Of a DNA stretch of 64,000 nt, positions 55,950 to 56,710 are shown piece after piece. The first letter of the stretch is position 1, and each line of letters starts with the position of its first letter. A program made the position numbers and the translations under genes. The DNA is taken from contig NZ_CP020474.1 in assembly GCF_002080415.1 (NCBI RefSeq), positions 930,001 to 994,000 on the forward strand, in the 5' to 3' direction. Under the pieces are notes generated by a model that worked only from the letters and a program-made list of their open reading frames with translations, had not been told where the DNA came from and searched no databases. This DNA comes from Roseovarius mucosus (GTDB lineage: Bacteria > Pseudomonadota > Alphaproteobacteria > Rhodobacterales > Rhodobacteraceae).

Positions 55950-56197
55950 CTTCGGTCCTTTGGTCCTGGGTTGGTCCTCAGCCACCATCACGGCGACAGC
56001 AGCAAGTCTTCACATAACGCCTAAAAAATGCCGCATTTGCTTAACCTTAGGTCACTTTTAGCTTATGCATTTGCTGCATAGCAGCATTGCTTATCAGGGG
56101 TATTGTGCACGCGCAGCAAAGGCGTATCTTACTCTCAACAAATGGCGAAACGAACCCCGCCGAACCTGAATACAATCAAATCCGCAAGGACCCGAAA
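55950..56197. other. Divergent promoter region of mrp and the DUF1127/sRNA locus
   Basis: 248 bp with an AT-rich centre (about 56000-56060) and a palindrome TGCTGC-ATA-GCAGCA (56072-56086). The rightward promoter of the DUF1127 gene should lie here; in Rhodobacter sphaeroides the equivalent promoter is RpoHI/RpoHII dependent. I could not place a convincing -35/-10 pair. Confidence 0.45.
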
Positions 56198-56425
56198 ATG
56201 CCGACGACGCTTAACACCAGCCGCTCCGCCACCGCCGTCCTCGGCGAAGACCTGAGCGCGGCTTTCTATGCTGCAATGCAGCGCTTTGTGAATTATCGCA
56301 CCTATCGCCGCACGGTCAATGAGCTGTCGCAACTGAGCGCGCATGACCTCGCCGATCTGGGCCTGCACCGTAGCGAAATCCGCCGCGTTGCGCATGAAAC
56401 AGTTTACGGCCACCGGTCGTACTAA
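56198..56425 (+). CDS. DUF1127 small protein (CcaF1-like), host gene of CcsR-like RNAs
   Basis: A 75-residue basic protein. The DUF1127 motif fills the C-terminal half: Arg/Tyr-rich NYRTYRRTVNELSQLSAHDL (about residues 32-51), then ADLGLHRSEIRRVAH. AAGGA precedes the ATG at the right distance. In R. sphaeroides the comparable small DUF1127 protein upstream of CcsR1-4 (CcaF1, RSP_6037) binds RNA and influences sRNA maturation. The same gene order here (5' DUF1127 gene, 3' CCTCCTCCC hairpins, then terminator) supports co-transcription. Confidence 0.9.
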   Translation: MPTTLNTSRSATAVLGEDLSAAFYAAMQRFVNYRTYRRTVNELSQLSAHDLADLGLHRSEIRRVAHETVYGHRSY

Positions 56426-56430
56426 AGGAT

Positions 56431-56508
56431 CAGATACCCCCCTCCTCCTCCCTGGGGTATCTGTTACGGTCACGGGCATCTTTCCTCCTCCCTGATGCTC
56501 GGGGCCGT
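56431..56508 (+). ncRNA. CcsR/cuckoo-type sRNA unit 1 (two anti-Shine-Dalgarno hairpins)
   Basis: First hairpin: stem CAGATACCCC/GGGGTATCTG (56431-56463) with a 13-base loop CCTCCTCCTCCCT. Second hairpin: inner stem GCATC/GATGC and outer ACGG/CCGT (56466-56508) with loop TTTCCTCCTCCCT. Both loops carry CCTCCTCCC, able to pair with ribosome binding sites. Two hairpins per unit with this loop is the hallmark of the CcsR/cuckoo family. Processing from the DUF1127 transcript is inferred. Confidence 0.85.
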
Positions 56509-56514
56509 CAAATC

Positions 56515-56621
56515 GGGACTGAACAAGTCCCTTCGTTTTGCGAATGGCCCTCTCCTCCTCCCTGGGCCGGACGTATAGGAAACGGCGGCACCCCTCCTCC
56601 TCCCTGGTGCCGCCGTTTTTT
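56515..56621 (+). ncRNA. CcsR/cuckoo-type sRNA unit 2
   Basis: A short hairpin GGGACT-GAACA-AGTCCC (56515-56531) is followed by GGCCC/GGGCC (56546-56568) with loop TCTCCTCCTCCCT, and by AACGGCGGCACC/GGTGCCGCCGTT (56581-56617) with loop CCTCCTCCTCCCT and a T-tract. The loops are nearly identical to those of unit 1 while the stems are unrelated, so the loop sequence, not ancestry of the stems, is what is conserved. Confidence 0.85.
56581..56621 (+). terminator. Rho-independent terminator of the DUF1127/CcsR-like transcript
   Basis: A perfect 12-bp stem followed by six T (56616-56621). The terminator loop itself is a CCTCCTCCC anti-Shine-Dalgarno loop. Confidence 0.93.
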
Positions 56622-56710
56622 ATTGCGCGGATGCAAGACAGGGCAAACTTTTCACTAGTCGCACGAACCGCCCCGCGCGGCTCACCCCTCCGGTAGCCGC
56701 ACGGCAAGGC

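Follow-up and report, generated by a model that had tools for sequence, protein, structure and literature searches.

A ccaF1-CcsR-type small RNA operon in Roseovarius mucosus with two overlapping conserved palindromes, one of them a putative PhaR site, at its promoter

We identified, in a 64,000-nucleotide stretch of the Roseovarius mucosus genome (contig NZ_CP020474.1, positions 930,001 to 994,000; hereafter the window, in whose numbering all positions are given unless stated otherwise), a gene for a short DUF1127 protein followed by four hairpins with a common loop. The locus, which has the look of a functional one, belongs to the CcaF1-CcsR/'cuckoo' class of small RNA (sRNA) loci, a membership that covers the class and not the curated Rfam entry, and it is not a new kind. 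What seems to be new is a conserved double palindrome at its promoter, and the useful novelty lies there: the two overlapping palindromes are kept across dozens of genera, and one of them matches the PhaR site of Rhodobacter sphaeroides.

The locus begins with a forward-strand gene (56198–56425) that is preceded by GCAAGGA at ribosome-binding distance. Its 75-aa product matches PF06568 (56.8 bits, E = 1.8e-15), which bears out the sequence-only reading of a 75-residue DUF1127 protein at the start of the locus, and its nearest named relatives come from Roseovarius species. This protein has the features of the CcaF1 type, namely a DUF1127 domain, a length of about 70 aa and the first place in a CcsR operon, and is likely, judging from homology, to bind RNA. 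Two riboswitches were also detected in the window, both on the reverse strand: a cobalamin riboswitch (RF00174, 57083–57282, 123.8 bits) between the array locus and an OsmC-like gene region, and a SAM/SAH riboswitch (RF01727, 20650–20697, 57.6 bits).

The four hairpins lie on the forward strand in two pairs. The first pair consists of hairpin 1 (56431–56463, 10 pairs, loop CCTCCTCCTCCCT at 56441–56453) and hairpin 2 (56466–56508, 14 pairs, loop TTTCCTCCTCCCT at 56481–56493), and the second of hairpin 3 (56539–56575, 10 pairs, loop TCTCCTCCTCCCT at 56551–56563) and hairpin 4 (56576–56622, loop CCTCCTCCTCCCT at 56593–56605). Hairpin 4 has a stem of 17 pairs followed by a T run, in agreement with its earlier description as the transcription terminator, and it would also form the end of the second sRNA. 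The loop motif CCTCCTCCC starts at 56444, 56484, 56554 and 56596 and has no other copy in the window on either strand (four copies against 0.89 expected; none of 100 shuffles reached four). Each copy forms the 3' part of a 13-nt loop, and the closing stem is different every time, the stems of hairpins 1–4 bearing no relation to one another. The 10-mer CCTCCTCCCT is confined, in the entire 4.38-Mb genome, to the 3' ends of these four loops, and its reverse complement is absent from the whole genome; the same pattern read backwards, used as a control, occurs three times. The 204-nt stretch folds with a minimum free energy of −90.4 kcal/mol (z = −5.98), and none of 200 shuffles was equally stable. 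The motif positions and the fold thus confirm the four hairpins with a shared 13-nt loop that had been proposed from the letters alone.

It had also been proposed that the loop is conserved and the stem is not. This holds between the hairpins of the locus and between genera but not between close species, as each of the four stems is rather well conserved inside the genus (18 aligned loci), those of hairpins 3 and 4 most of all. Between the two units, the fold contains a further short hairpin, GGGACT-GAACA-AGTCCC (56515–56531, forward strand), whose loop has no CCTCC. In a comparison of relatives from the genus, a short hairpin was found in 28 spacers of 58–90 nt each between neighbouring loops (27 of 30 loci), and its stem letters show compensating changes (GGGACT/AGTCCC, GGGATC/GATCCC, GGGGCA/TGCCCC, GGGCCA/TGGCCC, GGGTC/GACCC and others). 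Shuffled spacers equalled the real hairpin in 5% of cases on average (range 0% to 26%), a fair comparison because the hairpin had been picked by maximising pairing. This spacer hairpin may mark the cut between two sRNAs.

When the Rfam model of CcsR1 (RF02791) was run in e-value mode, it matched both hairpin pairs, with 53.8 bits for 56535–56621 (E = 3.1e-12) and 28.4 bits for 56427–56509 (E = 1e-4). The covariance search suggested by the sequence-only reading therefore gave significant matches, though both lie under the gathering score of 65.3, and a scan of the window at the gathering threshold returned no CcsR match. The ar14 family (RF02344) likewise matched 56534–56651 with 50.2 bits, its gathering score being 58.8. 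Over 394 genomes of the family Rhodobacteraceae, RF02791 had a match at E ≤ 0.001 in 324 and a match above the gathering score in 17, which indicates that the cut-off is narrow rather than that the locus is foreign. The Rfam cut-off thus misses this class of sRNA over most of its range.

The arrangement is that of the ccaF1-CcsR1-4 locus of R. sphaeroides: a DUF1127 gene comes first and is followed by tandem double hairpins with CCUCCUCCC loops, with a terminator at the 3' end and an RpoH-like promoter in front. For the R. sphaeroides locus, the available parts of three papers report co-transcription, processing by RNase E and CcaF1, control by RpoHI and RpoHII, binding of Hfq and the target flhR (PMC10253847, PMC8625941, PMC8307010). 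Unlike R. sphaeroides, which has four CcsR sRNAs, Roseovarius has two hairpin pairs, and its stems have diverged from CcsR1 so that Rfam scores fall below gathering; the Roseovarius locus also has the hairpin between the pairs, a feature for which our comparison covered Roseovarius loci. A variable number of hairpins with a common anti-Shine-Dalgarno loop is also typical of the 'cuckoo' family, including the CIN1 locus, Sinorhizobium SmelA075 and SmelA099, and RF02344 ar14. Cuckoo RNAs are described, in the portion of PMC3927594 at hand, as having two to four adjacent hairpins per RNA with the same anti-Shine-Dalgarno loop and variable stems. Adjacent hairpins with CCUCCUCCC loops and variable stems, placed behind a short DUF1127 gene, are what we find here; in contrast to the rhizobial cuckoo loci, this array belongs to the Rhodobacterales.

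Conservation of the array was assessed with a loop-blind test on the best 30 DUF1127 protein matches in each of two draws, one from the genus and one from the family, the window's own locus included. A locus counted as positive if the gene was followed, within 1300 nt and on its own strand, by at least two CTCCTCC loops. With the window excluded, the positives numbered 28 of 29 in the genus and 26 of 29 in the family (29/30 and 27/30 with it), one of the 26 (L021) having loops only from 652 nt downstream. The sequence-only reading had named the lack of the loop motif behind the DUF1127 gene in close relatives as evidence against it, and the genus counts show the opposite; together with the RF02791 matches, the loops behind DUF1127 genes in relatives support its assignment of the locus to the CcsR/cuckoo type. 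At L034/L049 (genome G120), most loops lie upstream, not downstream, of the best DUF1127 match. Of 292 genomes of the order, 278 contain a tandem-loop pattern at some position; read backwards, the pattern gave 0 in most order genomes and up to 6, among the matches listed. In four genomes of a single genus (g158), the number of tandem-pattern matches was 13 to 19, also among the matches listed.

A larger set, drawn from 109 genomes each of another genus, comprised 110 DUF1127 loci; in all, 131 genomes had a DUF1127 match, and the remaining 22 were left out. One best match per genome was used, except for G033, which gave two, so that paralogues elsewhere lie outside the count. An array starting no more than about 160 nt from the protein match was present at 86 of the 110 loci, the window's own locus being counted in both numbers, and the arrays contained from 2 to 17 loops. 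Arrays of 14 to 17 loops behind a single DUF1127 gene were seen in other genera (L024, L016, L030 and L199). For 77 genera, we further collected all copies of CCTCCTCCC behind the gene without any stem filter, which gave 547 loops. On average 5.31 of the 8 flanking positions could pair, compared with a mean of 4.07 and a maximum of 4.20 in 200 shuffles of the 3' arms; a single 13-nt register was applied to all loops and does not suit some of them. The stem columns mostly carry 0.2–0.6 bits, with 0.76 and 1.0 adjoining the loop. Nine of the loop letters were set by the search itself and are uninformative on loop conservation, and the letters ahead of them are mostly C or T as well.

Upstream of the DUF1127 gene, the genus alignment revealed a long conserved block. 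It contains the element TTAACCTTAGGTCA (56041–56054, forward strand), two overlapping palindromes and an RpoH-like promoter (56103–56130, forward strand) that consists of TTG at 56103–56105, a 19-nt spacer and the TAT of TATCTT at 56125–56130. The element TTGTGCA-N3-GCAGCAA overlaps the −35 region and the spacer of this promoter. In the available text of PMC10673084, the RpoHI/RpoHII consensus has TTG at −35 and TAT at −12 and is matched by the promoter of another DUF1127 gene of R. sphaeroides, rsp_0557, and the importance of TTG in RpoH promoters is noted in the consulted part of PMC3441632. TTG combined with TAT at N19 (29 genera), CAT at N20 (29) or CAT at N19 (1) was found in 59 of 77 genera; the element is present without the TTG-TAT/CAT core in 15 and missing in 3. 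The segment 56103–56130 is a plausible candidate for the RpoH-type promoter that the earlier reading had suggested looking for ahead of the gene.

Palindrome A (56064–56080), TATGCA-N5-TGCATA, is by its conservation a putative operator of a second dimeric regulator, and may belong to a regulator other than PhaR. Its core, ATGC-N7-GCAT, is exact at 76 of the 86 array loci, each from another genus, and one mismatch away at the other 10. At the 24 loci without an array it is exact in 8 and one letter off in 7, and among control stretches further up and down, an exact core occurs once in 85 and once in 82. Covariation was sought in palindrome A and was absent for the outer letters (T/C versus A/G, Fisher p = 0.27) and for the inner pair (p = 0.74). 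Palindrome B (56071–56086), TTGCTGCATAGCAGCA or TTGCTGC-ATA-GCAGCA, was found with at most two mismatches at 76 of the 86 loci that have an array and at 10 of the 24 that have none, and is therefore not strictly tied to the array. Similar counts came from further sets that partly overlap with the 110 loci and with one another and are not independent samples: among 80 named loci, 77 have arrays, and of these the A core is exact in 72 and B (≤2 mismatches) is present in 64; among 30 loci found with the CcsR1 model, A (≤1 mismatch) is present in 28 and B (≤2 mismatches) in 25, two loci (L376 and L379) having neither; and among the 17 loci above the RF02791 gathering score, the A core is exact in 16 and B (≤2 mismatches) is present in 14.

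Palindrome B includes the 11-mer CTGCATAGCAG, which conforms to CTGCNNNGCAG, the published binding site of R. sphaeroides PhaR, whose N positions are unconstrained according to the accessible part of PMC12542648. The promoter carries this site and phaR is present in the genome, as expected of a member of the PhaR regulon. An exact CTGCN3GCAG precedes the DUF1127 gene at 54 of 86 array loci but at only 6 of the 24 that have no array (Fisher p = 0.0012), and was absent from all full-length control stretches further up (0/85) and down (0/82). The longer sequence TTGCTGCANNGCAGCA occurs exactly at two places in the genome, one of them the ccaF1-type promoter. The other (L095, genome position 1014042) lies some 146 bp upstream of a gene for a cytochrome P460. 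With one mismatch there are nine places, two of which lie between phaC and a phasin-like gene, and with at most two mismatches there are 87 matches compared with 13 for the sequence read backwards (a palindrome may count on both strands). The phasin-like gene (Phasin_2, 23.4 bits, just under the cut-off) precedes phaR in this genome. The 11-mer CTGCATAGCAG is found again 36 bp before phaC, and two further exact CTGCN3GCAG sites precede the phasin-like and phaR genes.

The three letters between the half-sites bear on the PhaR assignment. At the ccaF1 sites they are ATA in 28 and ATG in 21, together 49 of 55. The 3-kb phaR loci of 29 genomes from the same set hold 45 exact sites, spread over 23 of the loci, of which 42 have RNY and none has ATA or ATG; the site studied here, with ATA, departs from the RNY of the phaR and phasin sites. 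For phaC, regions from 20 of the 29 phaR genomes were compared. In 7 of these 20 genera, all different from that of the window, an exact site was found 35 bp ahead of the long ORF taken as phaC, a lower bound because the longest ORF is probably not phaC in at least two of the regions. These seven sites, whose distance from the start is constant, have ATA in three, GTA in three and ACG in one, so that six read CTGC-RTA-GCAG. In its spacer letters, the ccaF1 site thus resembles the phaC site and not the phasin site. The spacer comparison weakened the plain reading of palindrome B as a site for PhaR, and the phaC sites partly restored it. Palindrome A, which overlaps B and spans the ATR letters, could impose these letters on B.

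Genomes that lack phaR offer a further comparison. The gene was found in 144 of 149 genomes of the family and 388 of 390 of the order, and was not detected in the other 5 and 2, respectively. Three genomes of 99–100% completeness (G003, G216 and G366, from the two genera g4 and g180) have arrays and no phaR; in all three the palindrome A core is exact and palindrome B is lost, its best match having four or five mismatches. G098, which is 84% complete and in which phaR was not detected, retains B. Among the other genomes without phaR, G033 has two DUF1127 loci, neither with an array, and G090 and G136 gave no DUF1127 match. Array loci in phaR-bearing genomes have B in 75 of 84 cases and lack it in 9. 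Loss of B is associated with absence of phaR when counted by genome (Fisher p = 0.007) and by genus (p = 0.041 with G098, 0.015 without it), and mean GC content does not separate loci with B (0.622) from those without it (0.627). Because PhaR is nearly universal, the test rests on few cases, and the co-loss is suggestive, not decisive, support for the PhaR link.

If PhaR acts at this promoter, the locus would resemble MmgR of Sinorhizobium meliloti, a PhaR/AniA-controlled sRNA whose gene has a PhaR-type palindrome at its promoter. MmgR is not known to be related to CcsR-type sRNAs or to have a DUF1127 gene. In the section of PMC12542648 available, PhaR is stated to repress mmgR, and the mmgR site listed there includes TTGTGCACCGCAGCA, which is similar to the second promoter element of the Roseovarius locus, TTGTGCACGCGCAGCA, the latter being one base longer. 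None of the literature searched (including PMC10371769, PMC9230146 and PMC11354728, as far as their text was accessible) joins CcaF1/CcsR or DUF1127 with PhaR; the main CcaF1, CcsR and cuckoo papers fall outside this set, and the link may be there.

The explanation that, taken as a whole, we hold with considerable confidence is that of a ccaF1-CcsR operon with an RpoH-type promoter, two anti-Shine-Dalgarno sRNAs and gating by PhaR; its expression, processing, pairing and PhaR binding in Roseovarius are what we infer. A single transcript would start from the RpoH-type promoter, some 60 nt ahead of the DUF1127 gene, encode the CcaF1-like RNA-binding protein, pass through the four anti-Shine-Dalgarno hairpins and end at the terminator of hairpin 4. 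RNase E, either helped or braked by the DUF1127 protein, would cut the 3' UTR into a pair of sRNAs with two hairpins each (about 56427–56509 and 56535–56621) and the spacer hairpin between them. Their exposed 13-nt loops would pair with ribosome-binding sites rich in purines (GGGAGGAG) on selected mRNAs, whose translation would be blocked under stress. The promoter would also be gated by its two overlapping palindromes, with B bound by the PHB-sensing repressor PhaR, and the carbon-storage state and stress would jointly set the output of CcsR. The loop CTCCTCCC is complementary to GGGAGGAG. Genome-wide, this 8-mer precedes an ATG by 3–12 nt in 24 cases, a raw count without background that yields candidates only. 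One of the 24 is the antisense strand of the array locus itself, and 22, the antisense one included, open a frame of at least 45 aa. The candidate targets include three subunits of molybdenum hydroxylases, which score below the NCBIfam cut-offs, an alpha chain like that of formate dehydrogenase, which is truncated where the locus ends, solute receptors of the DctP, TctC and TAXI types, dxs and alanine dehydrogenase.

Other explanations of the hairpins have to be weighed. That they are ordinary repeats, namely low-complexity CT stretches with a functionless terminator, would suit a short, CT-rich motif, but hardly a motif that is unique in 4.38 Mb within so stable a fold (z = −5.98), with loops behind the same gene across the family and stems that pair despite differing letters, and we give this idea practically no credence. 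The loops might instead act as a general translation dimmer, mimicking the anti-Shine-Dalgarno end of 16S rRNA and sequestering many ribosome-binding sites rather than a few targets. The CCUCC inside the loop, the C/T-rich letters preceding the nine fixed by the search and the occurrence of up to 17 loops at one locus, which suggests dosage, would all fit. We nonetheless think a general dimmer unlikely, given that the loops of the window exceed the rRNA end in length and specificity (CTCCTCCC requires GGGAGGAG) and that, in the available portion of PMC8307010, CcsR1-4 of R. sphaeroides are reported to act on the mRNA of a single regulator, FlhR. Alternatively, the hairpins could mainly serve the DUF1127 protein as a 3'-UTR platform or decoy for self-control of CcaF1, with no trans-acting sRNA. 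Array and protein are usually found together, and for R. sphaeroides the accessible texts describe an effect of CcaF1 on maturation of the ccaF1-CcsR transcript (PMC10253847, PMC8307010) and its binding to CcsR1 in vitro (PMC10371769). However, a role of this kind leaves the complementarity of the loop to the ribosome-binding site unexplained, 24 of the 110 DUF1127 loci (some of which may be paralogues) have no array, and the R. sphaeroides CcsR sRNAs are reported, in the same partial sources, to act on another mRNA; it appears improbable to us.

The closest competitor concerns the promoter: palindrome B could be part of a composite operator for another regulator, its likeness to the PhaR site being fortuitous or historical. 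The systematic ATR spacer, as opposed to RNY in phaR loci, speaks for a composite operator, as does palindrome A, which spans this DNA too and persists in each of the three near-complete array genomes without phaR. On the other hand, the R. sphaeroides site CTGCNNNGCAG, as published in the part of PMC12542648 consulted, sets no constraint on N, exact sites occupy a fixed place before phaC in 7 of 20 other genera and in this genome, and B was lost in both near-complete genera without phaR (g4 and g180). We take the composite operator as a serious possibility but not the leading one. Control of palindrome B by PhaR, as judged from the operator match, is the likely reading.

On this PhaR reading, a model for the Rhodobacterales as a whole can be put forward, tentatively and as something possible rather than probable. 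PhaR would repress the ccaF1-cuckoo operon through a dedicated operator that overlaps that of a second regulator, and would leave the DNA when PHB granules form. The sRNAs would then be released only if stress and a filled carbon store occur together, and would restrain uptake transporters and the molybdoenzymes of small-carbon oxidation. The status of PHB and carbon, besides stress, may thus set the output of CcsR-type sRNAs and, if this is true, a widespread anti-Shine-Dalgarno sRNA system would be tied to the sensing of carbon storage.
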